From contig JABLXH010000004.1 of NCBI GenBank assembly GCA_013178155.1, positions 1-64,000 on the forward strand: 64,000 nt of DNA, read 5' to 3'. Shown here in pieces: positions 3,814 through 63,112 of the stretch. A program made the translations under genes and the position numbers. Source of the stretch: Armatimonadota bacterium (GTDB taxonomy: Bacteria; Armatimonadota; Zipacnadia; Zipacnadales; UBA11051). The notes beneath the pieces are model-generated. The model was not told where the DNA came from. It was given only the letters and a program-made list of their open reading frames with translations, and ran no database searches. Every line of letters begins with the position of its first letter. Within the stretch, counting starts at the first letter, position 1.

Positions 3814-6516
3814 ATGAAGCCAGCAGTCCTCTCCCTAGTGACCCTGATCTGGGCTGTCGGGCTGCTGTGGGCCCAGGCATCGGCCGGACCGCAGCGCAAT
3901 CTCATCCCCAACGGCGACATGGAGGCTGACGCCGATGGCGACGGCGTGCCCGAAGTCTGGGAGGCGGCCGGAAACCCGAGCTACGTGACCCAGCGCCTCT
4001 CCGGTGACCAGGGCCGTGGTGGCGGCCGGTCGCTGAGGCTCGACTGTCGCCGGATTGAGCCCATCCGGCCCGACGCGCATGCCATGGTCTGCCAACTGGG
4101 CCAAGTGGAGGTCAAAGCTGGCCAGTGGTACAAGCTCGTACTTTGGGCGAAACAGCAGGGCCTCGACGAGACCGCCATCTCTGTCGCCCTGTCCAACACC
4201 CAGGGGTGGTCCAACCTGGGGCTCAACGACTCCTTTTTGGCCACTGCGGAGTGGCAGGAGAAGGTCTTCTACTTCCGGGCAACGGGCGATGCCCATGAGA
4301 CCACGCGGCTGCAGATCTGGTACCTGAGTCCCGGCACGTTGTGGCTTGATGATGTGACGCTCACGGAGACAACGTACCAGGCCGGGCCGACGCTGGTGTG
4401 GCCTTCGGCGGGGCGGCGCAACCTCGTGCCCAACGGTAGCTTCGAGCTCGGCCCTGACGGCTGGGGCAGTATGGGCACCTTCGAGCCCGGCCGGGGCTGG
4501 CGCATGGACCTCAACGCTCTGGTCGGGTCTGTGAGCGAGACCGGCGGCGCGGTCGGAGAACGCTGCCTTGAGATACAGCTTTCCCCTGAGACCGTTCCCA
4601 TCAGCTACTTCGATTACTTCGGCATGACCGGTTCCCGGTTGCTGAGGCTCCTTACGGGCACCATCGGCTACCTGGAGACCGAACCCGGAGCGACCTACTG
4701 CCTATCGGCGTGGGTCCGCGCTAACCGTGACGACGTGCCAGTTCTTCTGGGCATCCAGCCCTTCTATGGGGCACTGAACGTCTCGCGGGAGAGGGCAGGC
4801 CGAGAGTGGCGACGCGTGTCCATCCCAATACAGGTGGTCCACGAGCACGTCTTTCCGCTCATCGGCCTGGACTGGGAGCAGGCTGGTCCGGAGCCAACCA
4901 CGCTCTGGGTAGACGGCGTGCAGTTTGAGCGTGGTACACAGCCGACGGATTTCGTGCCGCGTGACACGGTCGAGGCCGGTGTCTCCACCTCGCGCGAAGG
5001 CAACGTGTTCTTCACTGGGCAACCGGTTCGAGTGAACGTCGCGGCCACCAACCTGTCCGGCGAACCAGCCCTCCTCGAACTGCGCGTAACCGACTATGCC
5101 GATACCACCGTTCTCACCCGCCAGTTCAGGGTGGCGCCCAACCGGCGGCGGTGGCGAGAGACGGTGGACCTCGGTCTATCGCGGCGAGGCTTCTATCGTG
5201 TCCACCTCAGCCTCAACGGGGTGGAGAAACCCCGGGGCATGCGTCTCGCTCTCATCCCGCAATACCAGGCCAGCGACTCCATCTTCGGCGTCAACCACGC
5301 CTGGCCGTGGCCGCACCTGCAACGTCTGGCCGTGGCGGCAGGCATCGGCTGGGCCCGCGACTGGTCCATCAAGTGGCAGGACGTGCAGCCTGCCGAGGAC
5401 GCGCCCTTCGATTTCGCGGAGAGCGATATACAGATCAATCGGGCACTGAGCTTCGGCCAGCAGGTCCTGGGCCTGCTCCCCTTTCCCTCGGCCAACTGGT
5501 CTTCCAGTGCGCCACCGGAGGTGGTGGCGGGTGACTCCTATCCGGCCAGCCGGGCGCGCATGGCTTTCGCCCCCCGCGACGAGCGCGAGTTCGCCCGCTG
5601 GGTCAGCGAGACAGTGCGCCACTACAAGGACCGCATCAAGTGGTGGCAGGTGTTCAATGAGCCTATCTACACGGGGTACTCCCTGCCCGATGAGCACGGC
5701 TACACGGGAGCCGACTATGCCCGCTGGGTGAAGGTTTTCTACCAGGCCGCGAAGGCGGCAGACCCCGACTGCTTCGTACTGGCGGGCATCGGGGCCTGGC
5801 CCACCTACGGCAACCGCCACTTCACCGCCATGTTCGAGGCCGGAGCGCTGGACTACCTGGATGCGGTGGACGTGCACGTCTACCCCGGTCTGTCCTCACC
5901 GGAGGCCACCGCGAAGGAACTGGCAAACCTGCACCGTCTCATGGACGAGCATGGCGGCCGCAAGCCCATCTGGCTCACCGAGCACGGCTACTATGCCGAC
6001 GATGATGTGGAGCAGATACCCGTTCAACACGGCGGCTTCAACATTCCGCTCCCCAGCGAGCGCGTGCAGGCGCAGTACTCGATGCGCTTCAACGTGATGC
6101 TGCTGGCAGCAGGGGTTGAGCGCATCTTCTATCATGCCGGCACCTGCCCGGCTCTCAACCGCGACAACACCGAGGGTATCTTCTTTGAGTACGGGGGGGC
6201 TCCCCGCAAGATATACCCGGCCCTGGCGGCCTTCGCTGACCTGTTCCGGCCCGGCGTCGAGCCACTGGGGGAGCAGGACTGGGGCCAGGGCGTGAAGGCC
6301 TACCTGTTCCGGCAGGGCTCCCAGCTCATCCTGGCCGCCTGGAACAGGTCGGCGGCACAGCGGCTTGTCGTCACCTGGACCGACCGCCGCATTAGCGCTC
6401 GCGACATGATGGGCAACAGGTTGCAGGTACACGAGCTGGCCCTGGGCGCCGACCCGGTTTTCCTCTTGGCCAAGGGCCTGACCGCAGCCGAGTTCCAGCG
6501 GGCTATCCGGCGCTGA
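3814..6516 (+). CDS. Secreted GH39/clan-A-like glycosidase with two carbohydrate-binding-like domains
   Basis: The 900-aa protein begins with a signal peptide (hydrophobic residues 4-20, likely cut after AQASA). ATG 3814 follows GAGGTGG at 8 bases. Two galactose-binding-like beta domains follow, each opening with N-L-(I/V)-P-N-G (from about residue 29 and about 205), then a beta-sandwich linker, then a TIM barrel from about 500. The barrel has the clan GH-A arrangement: FNEP (acid/base Glu616) at the end of strand 4 and WLTEHG (nucleophile Glu723) at strand 7. A small beta domain ends the chain. This should be a retaining exo-acting enzyme. The family resembles GH39 or unclassified GH-A proteins, but the substrate is not evident. 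A DegT-type aminotransferase follows after 151 bases. Confidence 0.8.
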   Translation: MKPAVLSLVTLIWAVGLLWAQASAGPQRNLIPNGDMEADADGDGVPEVWEAAGNPSYVTQRLSGDQGRGGGRSLRLDCRRIEPIRPDAHAMVCQLGQVEVKAGQWYKLVLWAKQQGLDETAISVALSNTQGWSNLGLNDSFLATAEWQEKVFYFRATGDAHETTRLQIWYLSPGTLWLDDVTLTETTYQAGPTLVWPSAGRRNLVPNGSFELGPDGWGSMGTFEPGRGWRMDLNALVGSVSETGGAVGERCLEIQLSPETVPISYFDYFGMTGSRLLRLLTGTIGYLETEPGATYCLSAWVRANRDDVPVLLGIQPFYGALNVSRERAGREWRRVSIPIQVVHEHVFPLIGLDWEQAGPEPTTLWVDGVQFERGTQPTDFVPRDTVEAGVSTSREGNVFFTGQPVRVNVAATNLSGEPALLELRVTDYADTTVLTRQFRVAPNRRRWRETVDLGLSRRGFYRVHLSLNGVEKPRGMRLALIPQYQASDSIFGVNHAWPWPHLQRLAVAAGIGWARDWSIKWQDVQPAEDAPFDFAESDIQINRALSFGQQVLGLLPFPSANWSSSAPPEVVAGDSYPASRARMAFAPRDEREFARWVSETVRHYKDRIKWWQVFNEPIYTGYSLPDEHGYTGADYARWVKVFYQAAKAADPDCFVLAGIGAWPTYGNRHFTAMFEAGALDYLDAVDVHVYPGLSSPEATAKELANLHRLMDEHGGRKPIWLTEHGYYADDDVEQIPVQHGGFNIPLPSERVQAQYSMRFNVMLLAAGVERIFYHAGTCPALNRDNTEGIFFEYGGAPRKIYPALAAFADLFRPGVEPLGEQDWGQGVKAYLFRQGSQLILAAWNRSAAQRLVVTWTDRRISARDMMGNRLQVHELALGADPVFLLAKGLTAAEFQRAIRR

Positions 6517-6667
6517 ACCCCCTTGGGGCCGAAGCCATACTTCTGTTACTGCGGAGGGCGCCCAAACCCATGTGATCAGGTGGAGGGGTTCGGGGCCAGA
6601 TGGGGGAATGGGGCTGCATGCCCCCCCGTGAGTCACGGGGTAGAGGCTCTCTGCAGAGGTGAAGACC

Positions 6668-7909
6668 ATGTCGGCCGAACGCGCCAAGTACGGAGCCGCC
6701 GCCTGGGCGGACCTCAAGGGCAAGCTGCCCAACCCCTACCCCCGGATCATGGGCCCCCGGGCCATGGAGTACCTGCAGGAGGTTGTGGACAGCGGCCTGA
6801 CCACCAGCATGATCAGCCGGTTCGAGGAACGTTTCGCCAGAGAACTGGGCGTGAAGCACTGCATCGCCACTCCTGGCTGCACCCCCGCCCTGGCGGCGCT
6901 GGCGGCCAGCTTCCCCATGGAGTACGGTGATGAGGTCATCGTCAGCCCCATCACCGACTATGGCACCATCCAGGGCCTCTTCCGTCACGGCTTCATTCCC
7001 GTCTTCGCCGACACCGCGCCCGGTTCACCGAACCTTTCCGCCGAGACCATCGAGCCTTGTATCAGCGACCGCACCCGCGCGGTCCTTTGTGTACACAAGA
7101 CCGGGCTGATGTGCGACATGGACCCCATCAATGCTCTGGCGGAGAAGCATGGCCTGATCGTCTACGAGGACGCCTGTCAGGCCGTCTTCAGCCAGTACAA
7201 GGGTCGCTACGCCGGCACGCTGGCGAAGGCGGCGGGCTTCTCCTTTGACTCCGAGAAGACAATGGGGTCGGACGTGGGCGGCTGCGTGGTGACCGATGAC
7301 GACGAGTTGGCCGAACGTCTGCGCTTCATGGCCCACAGCCGAGGTGGGGTCAGTAGGCCCGGTTACGGGCGTCTCCATACGGAGCCGGGCTACGCCTTCC
7401 GCATGCCCGAGTGCACGGCGGCCATCTCTCTGGCACAACTGGACATCGTCCACGAGAACGTGGCCCGGCGGGACAAAATGATCCGGTACATGAGCTGTCT
7501 GATCGACGAGGTGCCGGGCGTGAAGTCCCTCCCGATCCCGGCCTATCAGGACGTCTACTCCTGCTGGATGGCGGGCCTCACGGTAGACCCAGAGCAGTTC
7601 ACCTGCACGGTCGCCGAGTTCGCTGACCAGCTTGCCGAGGCCGGCATCCCCGGCGCGGGCATGGGCGCCTACTACCTGATGGGCGAGGCCTGCACGTTCC
7701 TGAGTGAGTACGCGGCCGCGGGCAAGTTCCCGTTCAGCAAGCCGCCGGCCACTCGCGATTACACCTATGGGCCGCAGCAGACGCCCGTGGCCGCGGAGTT
7801 TCTCACCCGCTTCATCCGCTGGAGCACCTTCTGCGAGAAGTACACCGAGGAGCACTGTGAGGTCGCGGCGGCCATCATTCGTGGGGTGGCCGAAGCCAAC
7901 CGGCGCTAA
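6668..7909 (+). CDS. DegT/DnrJ/EryC1/StrS-family PLP aminotransferase
   Basis: This 413-aa fold-type I PLP enzyme belongs to the sugar-aminotransferase family (DegT/ArnB/AHBA synthase). The PLP lysine is K197 in SFDSEKTMGSDVGG, the region where this family carries its Schiff-base lysine followed by a glycine-rich turn. The upstream Y-E-D-A-C-Q segment supplies the Asp that pairs with the pyridine nitrogen. ATG 6668 follows AGAGGTG at 6 bases; an in-frame GTG at 6659 is less well placed. Family members transaminate keto-sugars or a few other ketones, so a role in making amino sugars for surface glycans or natural products is likely. The exact substrate is unknown, and there is no dehydratase next door to fix it. 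Confidence 0.85.
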   Translation: MSAERAKYGAAAWADLKGKLPNPYPRIMGPRAMEYLQEVVDSGLTTSMISRFEERFARELGVKHCIATPGCTPALAALAASFPMEYGDEVIVSPITDYGTIQGLFRHGFIPVFADTAPGSPNLSAETIEPCISDRTRAVLCVHKTGLMCDMDPINALAEKHGLIVYEDACQAVFSQYKGRYAGTLAKAAGFSFDSEKTMGSDVGGCVVTDDDELAERLRFMAHSRGGVSRPGYGRLHTEPGYAFRMPECTAAISLAQLDIVHENVARRDKMIRYMSCLIDEVPGVKSLPIPAYQDVYSCWMAGLTVDPEQFTCTVAEFADQLAEAGIPGAGMGAYYLMGEACTFLSEYAAAGKFPFSKPPATRDYTYGPQQTPVAAEFLTRFIRWSTFCEKYTEEHCEVAAAIIRGVAEANRR

Positions 7910-7934
7910 AGGTGGTCTGAGCCGCTGGAAGCCA

Positions 7935-7963
7935 GACGGGGCAGCCCTGGTGGCTGCCCCGTC
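7935..7963. terminator. Bidirectional hairpin between convergent genes
   Basis: A perfect 12-bp stem (7935-7946 with 7952-7963) closes a 5-base loop, CTGGT. It lies 25 bases after the aminotransferase stop and 29 bases beyond the convergent prepilin gene's stop. There is no T-tract on the plus side; GCGATTCT follows instead. It is probably a shared terminator. Confidence 0.7.
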
Positions 7964-7992
7964 GCGATTCTCCACCGGAGACGCACCGAGGT

Positions 7993-8715
7993 CTAGGGGA
8001 CCGGGTGGTCGTGGCCGCACATGTACCAGTAGTGCGTCAGTCCCTGGTTCAGCCCCAGGTCGTGCCACTTGAACCACTTGGCATGGCCGTCCACGAAACC
8101 AACATTGGCGCCACCGTTATGACGCGGCATCGGCGCAGGGGGCACGTCACTCCGGCGCGGCTCAACGGTGTAGGCGTAGACATAGCCGTAAGACTGGGGC
8201 CAATACCACCGGCCGTCGGCGAGCGCGATGCACTCCGAGGGCAACTGGATGTTGGCCAGCGAGACGGTCCCGTACATTGCACCGCGGAAGGGACCCACGT
8301 GCGTCCGGTAGGTGGTATCGTCCCAGGTCCACGCGGTGTTGGCTCCGTAACCACACTTGGCGTCGGGGCCCGTGCCGGCAGTGTTCAGACCACCGGTCCA
8401 GGACTGGTCGGGAGCCGAGGGACACGTGAAGATCTGGGAGTTCTTCACGTACGGCAGGATGACATGCATCCACAGGATGTAGTTGCCGGGCTGGCCATAC
8501 GCCCCGGGCCAGATGGGCACCCAGTTCTCATCATAGTCCTGGACATACATGGCGCAGCCCAACACCAACTGCTTGATGTTGGACAGACAGGACGTTTGGC
8601 GCGCCTTCTCGCGAGCCTTGGCGAAGACCGGAAACAGGATCGCCGCCAGGATGGCGATGATCGCGATCACAACGAGCAACTCGATGAGCGTGAAGCCTCT
8701 GCACCGTGCGAACAT
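7993..8715 (-). CDS. Prepilin-like H-X9-DG protein (DUF1559 type)
   Basis: The 240-aa protein has a class III/type IV prepilin N-terminus: short basic leader, cleavage and methylation site G7-F8-T-L-I-E12, and about 20 hydrophobic residues. The body contains SCLSNIKQL and the C-terminus has [13 protein letters not shown], an exact H-X9-DG motif. Such proteins are pseudopilins exported by a type II/IV pilus system and are massively expanded in Planctomycetota and Armatimonadota. AAGGAGAG lies 8 bases before the start. The gene follows a FadR-type regulator by 54 bases on the same strand, so the two may be cotranscribed. No pilus assembly gene is in the window. Confidence 0.9.
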
Positions 8716-8769
8716 TCACGTCTCTCCTTCCGCTGGGGTCTATCTCAAGCCCTCAAACGGGCCTCGGCC

Positions 8770-9501
8770 CTACCTTGTGTCGCCCGTCTCGTCTGCATCT
8801 GGACGGGCGCGGCTCAGGTGCGTGTCCATGACCCGTTGGGCGGCACCTGCATCGCCGCGACGAAGCGCTTGCACAATCGCCACGTGCTCTTCGAGTGATG
8901 CCAGACGTGCGTCCCGCATGTCAGGCTCAGTTCTTAGCGCCTGCCGCGCTATGCCGAAATAGCGGCGCACGATCTCAGCCAGTTGGGCCAGATGACGGTT
9001 GCCGGCGGCCTGCAGCAGGGCCCGGTGAAAGGCCGTGTCGCCTTCTACGCCATCACCGCCGCCCTGCAGATCCTCACGTTGCCGCACGATGGCGGCCTCC
9101 ATGCGACGGAAGTCAGTCTCACGGGCGTTCGCCGCAATCAGGGGCAGAAGCGCCAGCTCCAGATAGTGGCGGGCCTCAAACAGCTCCTGTAGCTCCTCCT
9201 GGGACGGCGCTACCGGCAAGGCAACGGCCTGGGCGGCAGCGGAGAGATCCAGTGTGCAGAGAGTAGTGCCCACCCTTGGCCGGCGCTCCAGAACACCCGC
9301 CATCTGCAGTGCCTTGAGGCCCTCACGCACGGCGTTGCGCGAGATGCCCAGGTCCTGCGCCAGGGCTTGCTCACCGGGGAGCTTGTCACCCGGGCGCAGG
9401 TGGTTGCGGGCGATATGCTCCCGCAGCACCTCGATGACGACGTGACTCCGCGGGGTGCGGTTGGACCTTTCATGAGTTGTGTCAGCGTGAGTCAGTGCCA
9501 T
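8770..9501 (-). CDS. GntR/FadR-family transcriptional regulator
   Basis: The 243-aa protein has an N-terminal winged helix (residues about 20-85; GDKLPGEQALAQDLGISR and the following V-R-E-G-L are the classic GntR recognition region). A C-terminal all-helical FCD ligand-binding domain follows (about 100-230; E-x-R-x-x-L-E and later D-x-x-F-H and H metal-ligand positions). Regulators of this group usually sense carboxylic or sugar acids and repress adjacent genes. The prepilin-like gene downstream and the GH127 gene upstream are both on the same strand. The AT-richer region before the gene contains a repeated CTACAAAT that may be its own operator. Confidence 0.9.
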   Translation of the reverse strand: MALTHADTTHERSNRTPRSHVVIEVLREHIARNHLRPGDKLPGEQALAQDLGISRNAVREGLKALQMAGVLERRPRVGTTLCTLDLSAAAQAVALPVAPSQEELQELFEARHYLELALLPLIAANARETDFRRMEAAIVRQREDLQGGGDGVEGDTAFHRALLQAAGNRHLAQLAEIVRRYFGIARQALRTEPDMRDARLASLEEHVAIVQALRRGDAGAAQRVMDTHLSRARPDADETGDTR

Positions 9502-9509
9502 ATATTGTT

Positions 9510-9536
9510 CTACAAATACGCTTTTGCCCTACAAAT
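9510..9536 (-). promoter_or_regulatory. Possible operator: two CTACAAAT direct repeats upstream of the FadR-type regulator
   Basis: CTACAAAT occurs at 9510-9517 and 9529-9536, about two helical turns apart, immediately upstream of the regulator start at 9501. The stretch 9501-9590 is clearly AT-richer than its surroundings and also contains TGCC-N7-GGCA at 9540-9554. Autoregulation is the simplest reading but is not shown. Confidence 0.35.
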
Positions 9537-9688
9537 CCCTGCCAATGACAGGCAATACTTTAGTAAGATTTCGTGGCAAAAATGGGAATGGGCGAGGCAA
9601 GGTGGCCAGCTACTCCCCTGCCATGGCGAAGCCCACAAAGCGTGCGGCACGGGCCGACGAACCGGGAGCGCCTGGAGACGCGCCCCGA

Positions 9689-11548
9689 CTACCCACCCAG
9701 CACCGGGAACTCGGTCACCCGCAGGTTCGTGCAGCCGTAGGGGATTAGTGTCAACTCTTCCAGGGGCTCCTCGCTTCTCACCGGGCTGACCGGTGGCGGC
9801 GCGGCGGCGTCCTGGACGATCTGCCACTCGGGGAGGCGGCGGCCATGCACTCGCGCTTCCAGCGGCGCGCCCTCCGGCGAGAAGGGATGATCGCCGACGG
9901 GCCCTGCGGCCAGCGTCACCTGCTCCTCCAGTCGCGCCTCGTCCACGGCCAGCGCGTAGTTCCAGGGCGTCGTGGGGTGCACTTCCCAGTCGGCATGGGG
10001 TAGCTCGCCGCCAACCTGACGCCATTCCTCGCCAATCCGCAGCGCGTACACGAGAGGCCCACGCGCCAGGGAGAGGCTGTTGTTGTAGCCGCGCCGGGCG
10101 CGCCAGGCCATCGGGAAGCGGAGGGTCACGGCATCTCCGGACCGCCAGACGCGGACGATGGTCAGGAACTCCCCGGCGACCGGGCTCAGGGCCTCCCCGT
10201 TGACGCTCGCTTCAGGTCCGACGGCCCACCCCGGCACCCGCAGGTGCAGCGGGAACTGCACCGCGTCCTCTCCTTCCAACGTCAGTGTGACGGTGTCGCC
10301 GAAGGGGTAGTCGGTGGCCACGGCCAGGCGCAGCGGCCGCCCCTGGATGACCGTCTGCACCGCACAGGGCGCCCAGGCCACAACCGCCAGGCCACCGTCC
10401 GGCGAGGCCATCACCAGATGCCGCACGAACTTCGGCCACCCCTGGTGCATGTCGGCGGTGCAGCAGCCGTAGTTGGGCTCCAGGCCGAAGAGGTTGGCGT
10501 CGGGGCCGTTGTTGGTGTAGACGGGCTGTTCGGCCCGGCGGCAGACCACCTGATTGGCCTGCTGGTCGTACTGGTGTGACCAGGCGTCCGGCGCGATGGT
10601 GGCAGGCAGTGCGTTGTAGGCGATCTTCTCTAGGCAGTCGCCCAGGGCCGCGTCGCCGACGATGGACAGCAGTACCTCCAGGGAGAACATGGCCTCCACC
10701 ACGGCGCACAGCTCGGTGCCCTGCGAGGGGCTGCGTCCGGCCAGGGACTCATCCCCGCTGAACATACCGTTGGCCTGGCCGTGGTACCGGTCCAGGACCG
10801 CCAGGATGTGGGCGATGGCCTGGCGGTGGGCCGGGTCCCGGGACTGTCGCCACCACACCCCCGGAGCCTTCAGCGCCATGCCGTGGTTGACGACATGGTT
10901 CTCCTGCAGCCACTGCGGCTGCTTCTCGGTATAGCGGAAGTCCAGGAAATGCCCGTGCCAGTCATACCCCTGCTCATGGCACGTGGCGGCCAGATCCAGC
11001 AGCCAGGCCTCGCCCGTGCGCTCGTGGAGCCAATGGATGGTGAGCACCAGGTCCTGCCAGCGCGTGCGGTTCCAGTCAAAGAGCGGACGCTCGGCAAGAC
11101 GCTCCTGGATGCGCCGCATGACTCGCAGCAGGGCGGGGACGATGCGCTCGTCGCCCGTGGCCTCCTCGTACTGCGTCAGGGCCTTGCCGGCAATGGCGAT
11201 GGGCCAGGGGTCGTAGGGCTGGTAGCCCCCGCTTTGCACCGGACCCAGCCACCCGTCGGGCTGCTGGCGCTCCAGGATGCTATCCACCCAGAAACGGACC
11301 TTGCCCAACAGTCGCTGGTCGTCCAGGGCGAAAGCCAGCGGCACCAGACCATCGAGCCAGTAGGGCGCCCGCTCCCAGCCCTCGGCGTCGCCGCCGATCC
11401 AGCCGCTGTCGCGGATGTCCGGCCAGAACTCGTCCAGGTGGCCGGTCAGGCCGTCGGCCTGACGGCGGAGCTGGTGCCAAAGCCACCCGCGGGGCCTGAC
11501 TGCGCCGGGTGGCAGGGGTTCGAAGGCAGGAGGGGCCAGGGCGGGCAT
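9689..11548 (-). CDS. GH127-family beta-L-arabinofuranosidase-like protein (DUF1680)
   Basis: The 619-aa (alpha/alpha)6-barrel enzyme belongs to the GH127/DUF1680 group. The zinc-cysteine catalytic site is intact: T-E-L-C (Glu279, Cys281) and N-Y-G-C-C-T (Cys362, Cys363). These match the Glu-x-Cys and Cys-Cys ligands of characterised beta-L-arabinofuranosidases, in which one Cys is the nucleophile. Conserved WIGGDAEG and the D-G-W-L-G-P region also fit. The start is placed at the ATG whose Shine-Dalgarno GGAG is 8 bases away (11548); the ATG two codons earlier would leave only 2 bases. No signal peptide is visible, so it should act in the cytoplasm on imported arabinosides. The gene is divergent from the beta-helix protein. 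Confidence 0.88.
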   Translation of the reverse strand: MPALAPPAFEPLPPGAVRPRGWLWHQLRRQADGLTGHLDEFWPDIRDSGWIGGDAEGWERAPYWLDGLVPLAFALDDQRLLGKVRFWVDSILERQQPDGWLGPVQSGGYQPYDPWPIAIAGKALTQYEEATGDERIVPALLRVMRRIQERLAERPLFDWNRTRWQDLVLTIHWLHERTGEAWLLDLAATCHEQGYDWHGHFLDFRYTEKQPQWLQENHVVNHGMALKAPGVWWRQSRDPAHRQAIAHILAVLDRYHGQANGMFSGDESLAGRSPSQGTELCAVVEAMFSLEVLLSIVGDAALGDCLEKIAYNALPATIAPDAWSHQYDQQANQVVCRRAEQPVYTNNGPDANLFGLEPNYGCCTADMHQGWPKFVRHLVMASPDGGLAVVAWAPCAVQTVIQGRPLRLAVATDYPFGDTVTLTLEGEDAVQFPLHLRVPGWAVGPEASVNGEALSPVAGEFLTIVRVWRSGDAVTLRFPMAWRARRGYNNSLSLARGPLVYALRIGEEWRQVGGELPHADWEVHPTTPWNYALAVDEARLEEQVTLAAGPVGDHPFSPEGAPLEARVHGRRLPEWQIVQDAAAPPPVSPVRSEEPLEELTLIPYGCTNLRVTEFPVLGG

Positions 11549-11648
11549 GAGCATCGCTCCGTTCACATGGATTGCGGCCGAGCTCTGTTCGCCAGCCTGG
11601 CAGGGGCTTCCTCGCATTGAAGCGAATATGCTGGCCGAGGTGATGTCC

Positions 11649-14600
11649 GTGCGGATCGCGATGATTGCCGGATGGATGGTGTTTGCACTCGCTCACGCCC
11701 TGGCCCAGGGCCCTGTCTTCGATGACTGGGTCCGCTGGCGCGATGCCCTCACCCAGCATCCCGATGTGCTGCGCTACTACACTTTCGAGGACGCCGAGAC
11801 GGCGCAGACCCCCATCGTCAGCCGGGTCGGCGAGCCCGAACCCTTCGCCTACGGTGTCATCGGCGAGGCGACCGAGGAGGAGCGCAACCTGGTCACGGTC
11901 CACGGCCGTTTCTCGGAAAAGAAGGCTGTGCGGCTGGATCGTGGCATTCTCTCAGCGCCGCAGTTCCCCGTGAGCCGCAGCGGGTTCAGTGTCGAGGCCT
12001 GGGTGCGTACTCACGGCCAAGGCGCATTGCAGGGCGATCGGCCCGAGCAGAGCGCCACGTTGCTTTCGCAGGGCAACGGCTACTGGGACGGCTGGCGCAT
12101 CACGCTTTCGTACCCCACGGGGACCTATGGCTTCGAGCTCGGCAAGCAGCCCGGGTCCTTTGGCATTCGTGCGACCACGCCGGCCCCGGATGGCGTATGG
12201 CACCACCTGGTGGCGACCTGGGACGGCCAGATGGCGTGTCTCTATGTGGATGGCGCCAAGGTTGCCTCGGGAACCTATGCTGGCGAATACACCTCACCCG
12301 CGCCCAATGCCGTCTTCCGCCTGGGCTATGCCAACGCCGGTTGGGGGGCAGCCATTGCCGACTACGACGAGGTGGTCATCTACCGACGCGCGCTGAACCC
12401 CCTGGAGGTGCTGCAACATACACTGTACTACGCCCCGCTGAGTGCCGCTCACGCCGAGGCGCTGAGCGAGGCGGACGAGGCGGCCACCGGGGGGCAAGCC
12501 GACAGGGCCGCCAGAGCCTATGATCACCTCCTGGCGACGCCGGGCCTGCACCCACACTGGGCGGCTGTGGTGCGCCTGCGCATGGCCAACATCGCCCTGG
12601 CGAGTCGCAACTACGCGGGAGCCATCGCCCAGTACACGGCGGTGCTGCAGACCCCCGACTTGCCCGAGGGTCTTAGCGCGGTGGCCCTGGGGCCTGTGAT
12701 CCAGTTGGCCCTGCAGTCGGGCGAGCTGCCGCCCAGCATGTTTGAGCTGGTGACCGCCCACGCTGGGCCACTGCCGGCGGCGCAGCGGATGCAGCTACAA
12801 CTCAACCTGGCCCGCAGCTACATCCGCGCGGGCAAGCCTGCCGAGGCACAGCGTATCTACGAGGGGGTTCTCGCCATGGCGGAGTTGAATGACCGGGACA
12901 GGCTGGAGGTGCTGCTGCAGGCCGGGCACGGGCTGACAGCGGTCGGGCAGTACGACGCTGCGCGAGCCCAGTACCGCCGCATCGTGGACGCCACCGAGGC
13001 CCCGGCGCCTTACCGCAGCTACGCTCTGTTGTGCATGGGCCGCACCTATACGGTGGAGAAGCAGTACTCCGTGGCCCGCAAGGCCTATGAGCGCCTCGAG
13101 GCCATGGCGGATGCACCGGGTGTGCATCTCTGGGAGGCGGCCGAAGGCAAGCGCGAGGTCGAGCGCCTGGCCAAGGGACTCCCCGCTCGCGACCCGGCGG
13201 ACTACCGCGTGCAGTTGCCGAAGTTGCGCTCGCCGGCGATGCAGCTCTTCGTCTCGCCGGGCGGTGACGACGCCAATCCGGGCACGAAAGAGAAGCCGTT
13301 TGCAACCCTCCAGCGGGCGCAGACCGCGGTCCGCGAGCTCATCGCCAGGGGGCTGCCGGAGGGTGGCGTGGTGGTGAATATCGGGCCGGGCGAGTACGCG
13401 CTGTCTGCGGGCCTGAAGTTCACGAGCCAGGACACCGGTACGGCGGTCGCACCGGTGGTCTGGCGGGCGCAGCAGAAGGGCCAGGTTGTGCTGACGGGTG
13501 GGCGAGAGGTGCCGCGGTTGCAGCCGGTCACCGACGAGGCGATCATTGCTCGACTGCCCGAGGAGGCCCGGGACCAGGTAATGGTATCCGACCTGCGCGC
13601 CGCCGGCATCACGGAGTACGGTGAACTGAAGCCCCGGGGGTTCGCCCACGGCGGCGGCAGTCCAGCCCTGGAGCTGTTCTGCAACGGCGAGCCGCTCACT
13701 CCTGCCCGTTGGCCCAACGAAGGCTTTGCGCGAGCGAAGCGCATCGTCTCCAATGACGACCGTGGTCATGTCTTCGAATACGAGGGTACGCGGCCGGAAC
13801 GCTGGCTGGAGGCTAAAGACCCCTGGGTCTTTGCGTACTGGAAGTGGCAATGGGCCGATAGCCGCGACCCGATCCTGAGCATAGACGCTGCCGCGCAGAC
13901 CATGAGGACTCCACGGCTGGGGGAATCCGCCGACGCGGCGCCGTACTTCGTCTACAACCTGCTGGAAGAGATAGACCAGCCGGGTGAGTGGTACCTGGAC
14001 CGTAAGACCGGTCTTCTGTATCTCTATCCGCCAGCGGGCGATGACCCTCCCGACCTCCGTGTGTCGCTCGTCAGTGATCCGCTGGTCAGCCTGGAGGACG
14101 TGTCATGGCTGCGGCTGGAGGGGCTGACGCTGGAGTACGGGCAGTGGCACGGTGTGTCCATCAAGGGCGGCGAGCACTGCCTGGTGGCGGGGTGCACGAT
14201 CCGCAATCTGAGCGGTGATGCGGTGGTGATTGACGGCGGCGCGAGCCACGGCATCTTCGGCTGTGACCTGTACAACCTGGGGCGGGGCGGCAGTGTCATC
14301 ACGGGGGGCGACCGCAAGACCTTGACCCCCGGCGGGCACTTCATCGCCAACTGCGACGTGCACCACTTCTCGCGCGTGGACCGTACCTACACCCCGGCGG
14401 TACTGATGAACGGCGTCGGCAACCGCGTCGCCCATAACCGCTTCCACCACACGCCCTGCCACGCCATGCGCATCGAGGGCAACGACCATATTATCGAGTT
14501 CAATGAGGTCTTCGACGTAGTGACCGAGTCCGACGACCAGGGCGGGCTGGATATGTGGGGCAATGCCGGCTATCGGGGCGTCATCCTCCGGTACAACTTC

Positions 14601-58818: not shown

Positions 58819-58837
58819 ACCCGGAGAGGAGCCTGGA

Positions 58838-61315
58838 TTGGCTGAACAGAGCGGGGGACCGCAAGGAGTTGTCAGCACCATCGCGGCCAAGTGCCGACGG
58901 TGCTACAACTGCGTCCGGAGTTGCCCGGCCCGCGCCATTCGGGTCCAGGGGGGACAGGCCTGGGTGATCGCCGAGCGCTGCATTGGCTGCGGCAACTGCC
59001 TGCGTGTTTGCGCCCAGAACGCCAAGCAGGTGCAATCGGCGGTCTCCGCGGTAAAGGACCTGCTGGCCGGCCCTGAACCTGTGGTCGCCATCCTGGCTCC
59101 TACCTATGCAGCCGCGTACGCCGACGCCTCGGCTGGCCAGGTGGTGGCAGCGGTCCGGGCCCTGGGCTTCACCAAGGTCATGGAGGTCGGGTTTGGGGCG
59201 CAGATGGTGGCCGAGGCGTACTCGCACCTGCTGCGCCGCCGCCTGGACCGCCCGCTGATCAGCACTGCTTGCCCGGCGCTGGTCAGCTACATTGAGAAAC
59301 ACATGCCTGAGCTGGTCCCCAATCTGGCCCCTATCGTCTCGCCCATGGTGGCGCTGGCCCGGGCGGTCCACGAGCAGTACCTCCCCGGGGCCAAGATCGT
59401 CTTCATCGGCCCCTGCGTGGCCAAGAAGGCGGAGGCCCTGGAGCCGCAGGTCGCGCCGTGGGTGGACGCGGCGCTGACCTTCCAGGAGTTGGACGACCTG
59501 CTGCACGACCGCGGCGTGGCCGTCGCATCCCTCGCACCGGAGGTGGCCGATGAGCCCCTGCCCCATTTCGGCGCGCTGTTTCCGGTCTCGGGGGGGCTGC
59601 TGAAAGCTGCGGCGATTCAGGCTGACCTGATGGACGATTCCATCGTGGTTGTTGAGGGGGCTGAACGTTGCATCGCCGCACTCAAGGAGCTGGCGGCAGG
59701 GCATTTCTCCGCCCGTTTCCTCGATGCTCTGTTCTGCGAGGGCTGCATCGCCGGGCCAGCGTTCAGCAACAACCTCTCTCCCCTGGCCCGCAAGGAGCGG
59801 GTGACCGCCCACGTGCGCGAACTGGAGAGCCACTGCAAACGCATGCGCCGCGCGCTGCACCAGGTGCGGCACGTGGACATCTCCCGCCAGTTCGCCCCCG
59901 CGCCAGTGCCGGCTCCGCTTCCTACAGAGGCTGAACTACGCGACATCCTGGCCCAGACCAACAAGCACAGTCCCGCTGACGAGTTGAACTGCGGCGCTTG
60001 CGGCTATGCAACCTGCCGCGAGAAAGCCATCGCTGTTTACCAGGGCCTGGCCGAGCCTGACATGTGCCTGCCCTACCTGATTGACCAACTGCAGGTCAAC
60101 CTCGAGCGCCTGGGACGGAGCAAGGATGAGATCGAGCGGGCCCGTGACCTGGCTCTACGGGCCCAGGAGATGGCCTCAATGGGCCAGCTTGCCGCCGACA
60201 TCGCCCACGAGATCAGCGGGCCTCTGGGCAACCTGGTGGTCTTCGCCCAGTTGCTGCGCGACAGTATGGCGGATGACGATGACCGGCGCGAGGATGTGGC
60301 CAACATCGTGGCCGAAGCCCTGCACTGTCGCGATGTGCTGTCCAGCCTGCAGGGCTTTGCGCGTCAGCGGGAACCACAGTGGCAGGAGACCCACCTGCAT
60401 GAGGTCGTCCAGCGCGCGTTGCAGGAGATGGAGCCGCGACTGCGGCAAGCCTCCATCGTGGTGCCCACGGACGTGTCTGCCAAGCTGCCACCCCTGGTGG
60501 CCGACCCCGCCCAGTTGTCCCAGGTTGTCGTGAATCTACTGACCAACAGCCTGGAGGCCATGGCCGACACTGGCGGTGAGATTGCCATCACGGCCCATGT
60601 CACCGCTGACGGCAAGACGGTGCAGTTGACGATCCAGGATACGGGTCCGGGCATTGACCCGGAGTTGCTGCCCCGCGTGATGCAACCCTTCGTGACCACC
60701 AAGCGCGGTCACCCGGGGGCAGGGCTGGGGTTGGCGGTGACCCACGGCGTGATCCAGGTCCATGGCGGTGAGATCAGCATCGAGAGTGAGCCGGGGGCTG
60801 GCACGACTGTGCGGATTACCCTACCATGTGACCTGCCGCTGCAGTCCGCGCCGGAGGCCATCAAGGTGCTGGTGGTGGATGACGACGCCGATTTCCTGGA
60901 GCAGCACCGCATTGTGCTGGAAAGCATGGGGTTTGCCGTGGTAAGCGCCGAGCGCAGCGACGAGGCCCTCGAGGTGGCCGACCGTGAGATCCCCGACGCC
61001 TTCGTCCTGGACATGATGATGGAGCGCAATGACTCCGGGGCGCGCCTGGCCCGGGCCCTGCGGCGCGACCCGCGTTTCCGCCGGGCTCCCATCATCATGC
61101 TGACCTCTGTAGTCAGCGACATGGGGTTTGACTTCTATCGCAACCCCACCGAGGTCCTGGACTGGATGAAGGCGGATGCCTGGTTCGACAAGCCGGCGCC
61201 CTTCGCCGAGCTGGCCAAGATCATCCGGGAACGCCTGGCCGACCGAGAGGAGCACGCCGCGCCGCAAGAGCCCCCGCGGGCGGTGCAGGGGAGCGAGGGG
61301 ACATCTACTTCCTGA
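58838..61315 (+). CDS. [FeFe]-hydrogenase-type sensor fused to histidine kinase and receiver
   Basis: The 825-aa soluble protein starts at TTG 58838, six bases after GGAGAGGAG. Two [4Fe-4S] ferredoxin clusters (Cys19/22/25/29 and 48/51/54/58) lead to an [FeFe]-hydrogenase H-cluster domain with T-A-C-P-A (C145), G-P-C-V-A-K-K (C193) and F-C-E-G-C-I-A-G-P (C300, C303). A further four-Cys Fe-S module follows (C385/388/393/410). Then come a coiled linker (about 415-447), a HisKA helix with D-I-A-H-E-I (H457), an HATPase with N570, D-T-G-P-G and G-A-G-L-G-L, and a receiver with D681-683, D725, T756 and K785. Catalytic-enzyme features are altered: the proton-relay Cys before C145 is Ala, and Met positions are lost. 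This fits a sensory (group C-like) hydrogenase: H2 or redox state probably controls autophosphorylation. No PAS domain or maturase is present. Confidence 0.9.
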   Translation: MAEQSGGPQGVVSTIAAKCRRCYNCVRSCPARAIRVQGGQAWVIAERCIGCGNCLRVCAQNAKQVQSAVSAVKDLLAGPEPVVAILAPTYAAAYADASAGQVVAAVRALGFTKVMEVGFGAQMVAEAYSHLLRRRLDRPLISTACPALVSYIEKHMPELVPNLAPIVSPMVALARAVHEQYLPGAKIVFIGPCVAKKAEALEPQVAPWVDAALTFQELDDLLHDRGVAVASLAPEVADEPLPHFGALFPVSGGLLKAAAIQADLMDDSIVVVEGAERCIAALKELAAGHFSARFLDALFCEGCIAGPAFSNNLSPLARKERVTAHVRELESHCKRMRRALHQVRHVDISRQFAPAPVPAPLPTEAELRDILAQTNKHSPADELNCGACGYATCREKAIAVYQGLAEPDMCLPYLIDQLQVNLERLGRSKDEIERARDLALRAQEMASMGQLAADIAHEISGPLGNLVVFAQLLRDSMADDDDRREDVANIVAEALHCRDVLSSLQGFARQREPQWQETHLHEVVQRALQEMEPRLRQASIVVPTDVSAKLPPLVADPAQLSQVVVNLLTNSLEAMADTGGEIAITAHVTADGKTVQLTIQDTGPGIDPELLPRVMQPFVTTKRGHPGAGLGLAVTHGVIQVHGGEISIESEPGAGTTVRITLPCDLPLQSAPEAIKVLVVDDDADFLEQHRIVLESMGFAVVSAERSDEALEVADREIPDAFVLDMMMERNDSGARLARALRRDPRFRRAPIIMLTSVVSDMGFDFYRNPTEVLDWMKADAWFDKPAPFAELAKIIRERLADREEHAAPQEPPRAVQGSEGTSTS

Positions 61316-61664: not shown

Positions 61665-61747
61665 TTCGCCGCCCTGGGGATGACAATGCGCCGCCCCCGA
61701 CAGGGATGGTGCCTCTCGCTGCCGAAACCGCGCGACAGGAAACGGCG

Positions 61748-62668
61748 ATGTCCGCACCCATAGTCCGTCTCGACCTGTGCCCGCCGGCTCTGCAGCAGCA
61801 GGTCCGTGAGGCCCTGCTGGCGGCTGGTCTGCTGCCTGAGAGTGAGCTCGGTGTCGCCCCCGACGTAGTCGTGGTCTGGGTCTCGGGTGATGATGGGGCG
61901 ACGCAGGTGGCAGCTCTGCGCGAGGGTCTGACGCCGCCGATGCCGGCGGTTCTGGCAGTCGGCATTGGCCCCCCGGACGATTTCGCTTCCGCCGTGGCAT
62001 TGGATGCCGATGCATGCCTGTCCGAAGGCGAACCGCAGACCATCGCCCGCACGTGCGCCCTGCTGGCCTGGTCGCGCCAGCGGTTCCTGCAGACGAGCCC
62101 CCTGACTGGCCTGCCGGGGAATGCTGTCCTGGCGGCCGAGATCGAGCGCCGCCTCCCTCGACGCGGCGAGCTGGCGGTCTTGGCTTTTGACCTAGACACC
62201 TTCAAGGGCTACAATGACCGATACGGCTACGAGCGAGGCGATGCGCTCTTGCGCTGGCTGGCAGCGTTACTTCGGAACTGCCTTTCGTCGGGCGCGCAGC
62301 CCGGATGGCTCCTGGGGCATCTGGGGGGCGATGACTTCCTGGCGCTGGTCCATCCGGACGAGGCCGAGACGGTGGCACGGACCGCCATCGCCCGCTTTGA
62401 GGCCGAGATTGCGACTCATTACGACCCGGAGGACCGGGCGGCAGGTGGGATCTGGACTGTCAGCCGCAGCGGCGAGCCGGTGTGGCACCCTCTGGTCAGC
62501 CTCACGGTGGCTCAGGCCACGAACGAGGCCGACGACATCACCCATGGTGGCCAACTGGCCGCAATCCTCGCGGAACTGAAGCAATACGGCAAGACGCTTG
62601 CTGGCAGCAGGTATGTCCCTGACCGCCGGCGAACACACCTCTGGCGTCCCGACGGGACGTGCCGTTAG
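61748..62668 (+). CDS. GGDEF-domain protein (GGDDF variant)
   Basis: The 306-aa protein has an N-terminal alpha/beta region (about 1-105) resembling a receiver without a clear phosphoacceptor. A GGDEF domain follows, opening with S-P-L-T-G-L-P-G and carrying A-F-D-L-D-T-F-K-G-Y-N-D. The signature is G-G-D-D-F (193-197), a conservative change from GGDEF or GGEEF that is compatible with c-di-GMP synthesis; no RxxD inhibitory site precedes it. AGGAA lies 7 bases before ATG 61748; the Met 14 codons earlier is less likely. No TM helix. It lies between the hydrogenase-kinase and a lone receiver, with the FUN14 gene (minus strand) in between. Confidence 0.85.
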   Translation: MSAPIVRLDLCPPALQQQVREALLAAGLLPESELGVAPDVVVVWVSGDDGATQVAALREGLTPPMPAVLAVGIGPPDDFASAVALDADACLSEGEPQTIARTCALLAWSRQRFLQTSPLTGLPGNAVLAAEIERRLPRRGELAVLAFDLDTFKGYNDRYGYERGDALLRWLAALLRNCLSSGAQPGWLLGHLGGDDFLALVHPDEAETVARTAIARFEAEIATHYDPEDRAAGGIWTVSRSGEPVWHPLVSLTVAQATNEADDITHGGQLAAILAELKQYGKTLAGSRYVPDRRRTHLWRPDGTCR

Positions 62669-62737
62669 GTTGGCAGCGGGGGTACGGACGAGAACCCATT
62701 GAACACAGACGGAGGCGTTACGCGGAGGCACGAGCGC

Positions 62738-63112
62738 ATGGCCCATCGCATACTGTTTGTGGACGACGAGCGTGACATCGTGGAGTGCGCCCGGCTGTAC
62801 ATGGAGAATGCCGGTTACGAGTTCGAAGGCGCTTTCGATGGCCTGCAGGCCATCCAGGCCGTGCAGCGACAACGGCCAGACCTCATCGTCCTGGATGTGT
62901 CCATGCCGCGCCTGTCGGGGTGGGACACCCTTCGCATCCTGCAGGAGGACCCAGCTACCGCCGACATACCTGTGGTCATGCTGACGGCCAACACGCAGGA
63001 GAGCCACAAGGCCAAGGGGTGGGCGCTGGGGTGCACCTGGTACCACACCAAGCCCTTCGATCTCGAGGAATTGATGATGGTCATCTCGCGCATCCTGGCG
63101 GGCGAGGCTTAG
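62738..63112 (+). CDS. Stand-alone response-regulator receiver
   Basis: The 124-aa protein is a complete CheY-like receiver without an output domain: D9/D10 acidic pocket (F-V-D-D-E-R), phosphoacceptor D53 (I-V-L-D-V-S-M-P), T83 (M-L-T-A-N) and K105 (T-K-P-F-D). GGAGG lies 9 bases before ATG 62738. It starts 69 bases after the GGDEF gene, and both follow the hydrogenase-kinase. It may be the partner of that kinase or a link to the cyclase. A terminator hairpin follows. Confidence 0.93.
   Translation: MAHRILFVDDERDIVECARLYMENAGYEFEGAFDGLQAIQAVQRQRPDLIVLDVSMPRLSGWDTLRILQEDPATADIPVVMLTANTQESHKAKGWALGCTWYHTKPFDLEELMMVISRILAGEA

Follow-up and report, generated by a model that had tools for sequence, protein, structure and literature searches.

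The window, the 64,000-nucleotide stretch of DNA analysed here, comes from a 5.5-Mb Armatimonadota assembly of the Zipacnadales group. Towards its right-hand end, on the forward strand, lies a complete gene for an 825-residue protein in which a sensor-type [FeFe]-hydrogenase module is joined to a histidine kinase and a receiver. An AGGAG ribosome-binding site (58827-58831) is placed six bases 5' of the TTG start at 58838, and an orthologue (locus L024) opens with the identical residues MAEQS; thus 825 residues is the right length. A 947-residue version of the same reading frame begins inside the upstream gene. Pfam matches to the 825-residue protein are, in order, a 4Fe-4S dicluster domain (residues 16-62), Fe_hyd_lg_C (81-307, E 5.6e-49), the FeS domain PF04060 (383-412), HisKA (448-511), HATPase_c (556-664) and Response_reg (from 677), with no match to a PAS domain. 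The original prediction, made from the letters of the DNA, had given this gene the same coordinates, length and domain set and had noted the missing PAS domain, and all of this is borne out, as is its central proposal that a sensor-type [FeFe]-hydrogenase module is wired to a kinase and a receiver. The protein has the make-up of a hybrid histidine kinase, with HisKA, HATPase and receiver on a single chain and H457, N570, D601 and D725 all in place. Its features are:

58838 to 61315, + strand: complete gene for the 825-residue [FeFe]-hydrogenase-type sensor, histidine kinase and receiver; TTG start
58892 to 59011, + strand: two [4Fe-4S] motifs, C19/C22/C25/C29 and C48/C51/C54/C58, conserved without exception in 11 hybrids and 8 kinase-only relatives
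59078 to 59758, + strand: H-cluster domain Fe_hyd_lg_C, residues 81-307 (Pfam, Foldseek)
59264 to 59275, + strand: first H-cluster motif, TACP, with ligand C145 and with Ala144 at the proton-path Cys position
59408 to 59434, + strand: second H-cluster motif, GPCVAKKAE, with ligand C193; Gly191 replaces Met, K196 and E199 are kept
59735 to 59746, + strand: third H-cluster motif, CEGC (C300, C303), with one residue fewer than the canonical CxxxC
59984 to 60073, + strand: C-terminal Fe-S domain (PF04060), Cx2Cx4Cx16C (C385, C388, C393, C410)
60068 to 60265, + strand: unbroken helix from the Fe-S domain into the HisKA helix, residues 411-476, as predicted by AlphaFold2 (pLDDT below 70 near 430-460)
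60179 to 60370, + strand: HisKA (DHp) domain, residues 448-511 (Pfam)
60206 to 60208, + strand: codon of the phospho-acceptor His457, intact in the window copy and replaced in 8 of 11 hybrid orthologues
60503 to 60829, + strand: HATPase domain, residues 556-664; N570, D601-x-G-x-G and GxGxG boxes intact
60866 to 61237, + strand: receiver domain, residues 677-800; an insert separates T756 from K785
61010 to 61012, + strand: codon of the receiver phospho-acceptor Asp725 (alignment)

Just downstream of the sensor gene, the window contains genes for a GGDEF protein (61706-62668, motif GGDDF) and a CheY-like receiver (62699-63112); no such pair was seen beside the orthologue in genome G001, which belongs to the same family.

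The hydrogenase-type input module

Alignment to the published CpI numbering places the H-cluster ligands at C145, C193, C300 and C303, which are invariant in 19 aligned proteins. The alignment shows no variation in any of the metal-ligand cysteines, in K196 or in E199 across 11 hybrids and 8 relatives. The bridging cysteine, C303, and a conserved Ala-Pro-Ser/Thr close to the diiron site are also retained. The position of the proton-path Cys299 holds A or P in every hybrid (Ala144 in the window protein), whilst Gly191 stands at the Met353 position and Leu298 at the Met497 position. The four H-cluster cysteines, the separate four-Cys Fe-S module (C385, C388, C393 and C410) and the exchange of the proton-path Cys for Ala had each been recognized in the original prediction and are confirmed by the alignment. 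The Cx2Cx4Cx16C spacing of the Fe-S module is that published for M2e and M2f enzymes (PMC8163306).

In the third motif, C-x-x-C occurs across the kinase branch, and all but one of the four sigma-54 forms share it; a few members have C-C-x-G-C. The PAS-type sensors of Armatimonadota instead have C-x-x-x-C, as in catalytic enzymes. Thus, the C-x-x-C seen in the original prediction is there, but it marks a sub-branch and is not, as was then supposed, to be expected of sensors generally, since PAS-type sensors of the same phylum have the longer form. The standard C-x-x-x-C spacing, absent from the window protein, is not a known requirement of the family. H-cluster binding has been measured in a motif other than C-x-x-C, and the C1 proteins of Hydrogenedentota, which lack standard motifs, have been judged uncertain H2 sensors (PMC11406978); the same caution applies to the window protein.

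The module recalls two studied sensors, the group C (M2f) protein TmHydS and the group D (M2e) protein TamHydS, which likewise have two N-terminal clusters, an H-domain, a C-terminal Cx2Cx4Cx16C cluster and a replaced proton-path Cys (PMC10055695, PMC8163306). Ala at the proton-path position and Gly at the Met353 position are shared with TmHydS, Leu at the Met497 position with TamHydS. The C-x-x-C third motif and the presence of kinase and receiver on the same chain set the window protein apart from both; TamHydS has neither a kinase nor a receiver. It also differs from TmHydS in having no PAS domain, so that it lacks the PAS feature of M2f.

AlphaFold2 models the hydrogenase part with a pLDDT of mostly 88-97 (lower near residues 250-310) and the receiver poorly (pLDDT about 40-75). 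Foldseek matches to the model include [FeFe]-hydrogenases, amongst them those of D. desulfuricans and CpI (TM 0.6-0.69 by target), and the kinase ZraS (0.84).

Distribution and phylogeny

A related sensor is present in 28 of the 291 Armatimonadota genomes searched and the hybrid form in 11 of the 291, all of a single class. Two of these 11 hybrids are cut by contig ends: that of G013 consists of two contig pieces, joined for alignment only, and the contig of G020 stops before the receiver. Full-length orthologues with 59-66% identity to the window protein, from its own order and class, occur in nine other genomes (one contig-truncated), and a tenth is found as two contig pieces. The architecture is thus not a chance one, since it recurs at full length in other genomes.

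In a tree of the H-domain and Fe-S region, the sensors group together, split from eight group A HydA sequences with support of 100/100. The 11 hybrids form one clade (100/100) nested among kinase-only sensors of several phyla, which are paraphyletic with respect to it; the PAS-type sensors are a separate clade (98/95). Branches within the hybrid clade are only moderately supported.

[FeFe]-hydrogenase-linked kinases without a PAS domain are widespread, with 30 distinct examples from several phyla. Of 396 Bacteroidota genomes sampled, 29 have related sensors, and a fused receiver was seen in none of these 29. Seven Bacteroidota matches that ran into a receiver were considered as hybrids and rejected, each having a stop and a receiver start. 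The samples of Omnitrophota (14 genomes) and of a deltaproteobacterial lineage (3) are too small to call hybrids absent there. The expectation that a receiver hybrid without a PAS domain would be uncommon therefore holds for the fused receiver, found in one Armatimonadota class only, but not for the lack of a PAS domain, which is ordinary in the kinase branch.

When marine Armatimonadota were surveyed with a 50%-identity filter, no [FeFe]-hydrogenases were reported (PMC10290634). Despite that survey, a contig of Ca. Zipacnadum vermilionense (JALGSV010000019.1; L054, 3633-7285) carries both a group A [FeFe]-hydrogenase HydA and a hybrid sensor.

The same Fer4-Fe_hyd_lg_C-FeS front end is also found fused to sigma-54 AAA+ activators with HTH domains (L059, with an interrupted frame, L060, L062 and, in part, L065), an output already noted on such front ends in Clostridiales (PMC6615313). 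L059, L060 and L062 resemble the window protein in having no PAS domain. However, the output of the sigma-54 forms is a one-component AAA+ and HTH, whereas that of the window protein is a kinase and a receiver.

Origin of the fused receiver

A separate gene for a receiver of 126-140 residues lies 3' of the kinase gene in 24 of the 25 kinase-only loci examined; the 25th locus stops at a contig end. The closest relative, L086, has a 4-base overlap between its kinase and receiver genes, and its receiver shares 48% identity with that of the window protein. The separate receivers share with the fused one an unusual insert between the conserved Thr and Lys. The hybrid is thus a fusion of a pre-existing kinase-receiver pair, since its kinase-only relatives carry a receiver gene of the same family immediately 3'.

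Stand-alone receivers 66-72% identical to the fused receiver are encoded in four further loci (L069 1657-2118, L082 6654-7115, L083 459-890 and L084 3305-3730), in genomes without the hybrid sensor; two lie directly 3' of hydA and one 5' of the partner kinase described below. The stand-alone receivers of G009, G028, G024 and G007 were considered as the ancestral, unfused state, and for at least G009 this was rejected. G009 has only the receiver left, beside hydA; in the tree this receiver falls with the fused one of the related genome G014 (95/98), which makes it secondary; a single clade of all fused receivers is rejected (AU p = 0.016). Amongst these four genomes, the rejection of the ancestral state covers G009 only.

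Repeated loss of the phospho-accepting histidine

All 30 distinct kinase-only relatives retain the phospho-accepting His and the Asn four residues on. In the hybrids, His is kept in three of 11 (the window protein, G011 and G014) and replaced in the other eight, by Q (G001, G016, G020, G045), A (G012), S (G017), E (G023) or R (G013), through codons one to three changes from those for His. Parsimony on the tree requires at least four His changes, and five when no regain of His is allowed; the AU test rejects a single loss (p = 0.022). The kinase His was thus lost repeatedly after the fusion, about five times. Frame errors were rejected as the cause of the missing His, the codons (GCG, TCG, CAG, GAG, CGG) being found in independent genomes. 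No substitute conserved His is seen elsewhere in the DHp domain in the alignment, and His loss does not track with the presence of an adjacent partner kinase. Eight of 11 hybrids have likewise lost the +4 Asn that HisKA phosphatases use (Gly461 in the window protein), and four of 11 have Asn or Thr at this position.

The ATP-site and receiver residues, by contrast, are preserved. The ATP-binding residues N570, D601, G603, G605, K622, G627, G629 and G631 are invariant in all 11 hybrids, and the receiver residues D681, D682, D725, T756 and K785 in each of the ten whose sequence extends into the receiver. Mean identity amongst the hybrids is 78.7% in the receiver, 65% in the H-domain, 59% in the DHp domain and 50.4% in the ATPase domain, the Fer4 and FeS regions being more than 80% identical across the clade. 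Only the N-terminal clusters and the Fe-S domain are thus better conserved than the receiver, and the strongest selection in the output half falls on the receiver and not on the kinase His. That most close relatives have lost the His suggests that the signal can travel by another route. The idea that H2 or redox state could directly gate phosphorylation may hold for the window protein itself, but does not carry over to the eight of 11 hybrid orthologues that have no phospho-accepting His.

Genomic partners and maturation genes

The hybrid gene lies in or beside a hydC-hydB-hydA cluster in nine of 11 genomes, usually after a gene for a HydG-like radical-SAM protein; the exceptions are G000, the window's own genome, and G001. 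In several lineages, a second kinase with the architecture REC-PAS-HisKA-HATPase, its own His and Asp kept, is encoded 3' of the sensor-receiver unit. All 16 genomes with the sensor or its receiver have this partner kinase or a paralogue, against none of five genomes sampled without them; in the window's genome it is found on contigs C24 (L109, C24:67495-68967) and C152. A conserved neighbour of about 490 residues was considered as an NtrC-type sigma-54 regulator, which alignment and Pfam rejected in favour of REC-PAS-HisKA-HATPase. No DNA-binding output of the sensor system was identified.

Four Fe_hyd_lg_C genes are present in the host genome. Two encode group A catalytic subunits that match NF040763 above its cut-off, one is the window gene, and the last encodes a receiver-less sister sensor kinase on C152. 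The original prediction would have been undermined by a lack of the maturases HydE, HydF and HydG, and a profile search finds each of them in the host genome above its curated cut-off. Apart from this true HydG, encoded elsewhere in the genome, there is a HydG-like radical-SAM protein (L020, 8213-9682) that scores 282 bits against a HydG cut-off of 312, and in many relatives a gene of this kind lies between hydA and the sensor gene (also in L070, L071, L076, L078, L079 and L080). The same locus contains a HydB homologue of 1015 residues (L020, 3287-6334), a non-canonical subunit of the bifurcating type whose C-terminal domain is NAD(P)-binding and GltD-like.

Discussion

The explanation that we prefer, at about even chances, is that the protein is a cytoplasmic sensor of H2 or redox state, derived from a sensory-type [FeFe]-hydrogenase, which sets the state of its receiver and, with the partner kinase, adjusts hydrogenase expression. 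The H-cluster domain and the Fe-S chain would change state with H2 or with cell redox, and the change would pass by conformation through the C-terminal Fe-S domain and the long helix into the DHp/ATPase module. A conformational signal is favoured, and an electron path through the C-terminal cluster doubtful, because the equivalent cluster of the group D protein TamHydS is not reduced by H2 (PMC13104023). The DHp/ATPase module would in turn set the phosphorylation of the receiver, formerly a separate protein. The window copy probably draws the phosphate from its own His457 and hands it to Asp725; every catalytic residue is present, so that this route is open. The receiver would be the conserved output, acting with the REC-PAS-HisKA-HATPase kinase to adjust hydrogenase gene expression. 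In most sister species the His route is closed, so that the phosphate must come from the partner kinase or else the sensor must work non-catalytically; there, the receiver is probably phosphorylated by the second kinase and the sensor module may only gate access to it. Since the His is dispensable in the clade, phosphotransfer in cis may be vestigial in the window copy too. In favour of the preferred explanation are the invariant metal ligands, the maturases of the host genome, the hydC-hydB-hydA link in nine of 11 genomes, the separate receiver genes beside kinase-only relatives, the single hybrid clade, the well-conserved receiver and the constant company of the partner kinase. Against it count the hydrogenase genes not being adjacent here or in G001, the dispensable His, the failure to find a DNA-binding output, the C-x-x-C third motif with the caution attached to the C1 proteins of Hydrogenedentota, and the TamHydS result.

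The clade can also be read as one of pseudokinases. The hybrids, including the window protein, may no longer use His autophosphorylation and may serve instead as a non-catalytic platform that reads or presents the receiver and controls the separate hybrid kinase, a possibility that we regard with some doubt. It accords with the eight missing His residues and their at least four separate changes, a single loss being rejected (AU p = 0.022), with the equally frequent absence of the +4 Asn, and with an ever-present second kinase that keeps its own His. DivL of Caulobacter is the nearest precedent for a His-less kinase with a receiver and a hybrid kinase: its HisKA module has no phospho-acceptor and works with the single-domain receiver DivK and the hybrid kinase CckA (PMC4211667). 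However, DivL has a degenerate ATP site, binds ATP poorly and takes its input through PAS domains, whereas the hybrids have intact N, G1 and G2 boxes (11 of 11), a hydrogenase input and a receiver on the same chain. The window copy, with two others, also retains its His, and nothing in it signals inactivity.

A bolder, tentative reading is that in this Armatimonadota class the fusion of the receiver made His phosphorylation dispensable. The outcome would be an H2- or redox-gated pseudokinase, repeatedly evolved, in which the intact ATP site and the fused receiver form a switch that steers the second hybrid kinase, so that a hydrogenase sensor would signal without histidine. The genomes would then display the intermediate stages: His present, His lost and, finally, sensor and kinase lost with the receiver alone kept. 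We give this scheme, stages included, a limited likelihood.

It is less likely that the shortened third motif holds a [4Fe-4S] cluster only, without the diiron subsite, and that the protein senses ferredoxin redox state or oxygen. The C-x-x-C of nearly all kinase-branch members, one residue under the catalytic motif, would fit such a sensor, as would the replaced proton-path Cys and the existence elsewhere of C1 proteins without standard H-cluster motifs (PMC11406978); but a domain holding only a cubane has no obvious need for C303, K196, E199 and the Ala-Pro-Ser/Thr, all of which are kept, and HydE, HydF and HydG are present, though the two catalytic enzymes need them too. That the gene is a relic, drifting with little function since it left the hydrogenase operon, is very improbable: the erosion of the kinase His and phosphatase residues across the clade, the lone receiver of the G014 relative G009 and the position outside the operon in the window's genome would suit decay, but 825 codons stay open, all ligand Cys, ATP-site and receiver residues are kept in the window copy, and the Fer4 and FeS regions are more than 80% identical in the clade.

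That histidine kinase-linked sensory hydrogenases are known, as first stated, is correct: HydDB lists subgroup C1 as '[FeFe], histidine kinase-linked (putative)' (PMC5037454), to which we infer that the window protein belongs. HydDB C1 and the HATPase-bearing C1 proteins of Hydrogenedentota (PMC5037454, PMC11406978) share with it a sensory-type H-domain and a kinase module, often beside an electron-bifurcating hydrogenase; what distinguishes the window clade is the fused receiver and the unstable phospho-accepting His. Thus, hydrogenase-linked kinases are already known, although uncharacterised, and what is new is that the receiver is fused, so far in a single Armatimonadota class, and that the kinase His has been lost repeatedly; no description of either was found in the open-access literature searched.

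These features bear on how sensory [FeFe]-hydrogenases signal H2 onwards, TmHydS and TamHydS having been studied without a known partner. Because sensor, kinase and receiver form one chain, a test of the step from H2 to phosphorylation needs only one purified protein, and because the clade offers natural versions of the same sensor with and without the His, the role of the kinase step is directly testable. The clade also provides an unusually clear series, from the fusion of a two-component pair to the subsequent decay of its kinase half.

In the regulatory [NiFe]-hydrogenases of group 2b, sensor and kinase are separate polypeptides. The logic of that system is the same, in that a hydrogenase detects H2 and feeds a two-component system controlling other hydrogenases (PMC5037454), but the metal site and the proteins are unrelated. 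On C152 of the host genome, the second [FeFe]-type sensor kinase (L017, C152:6000-24000, positions 5635-13614) adjoins genes for a PilS-like kinase, a receiver, a REC-PAS-HK kinase and [NiFe]-hydrogenase subunits, and there the [FeFe]-type sensor apparently serves a [NiFe] enzyme.
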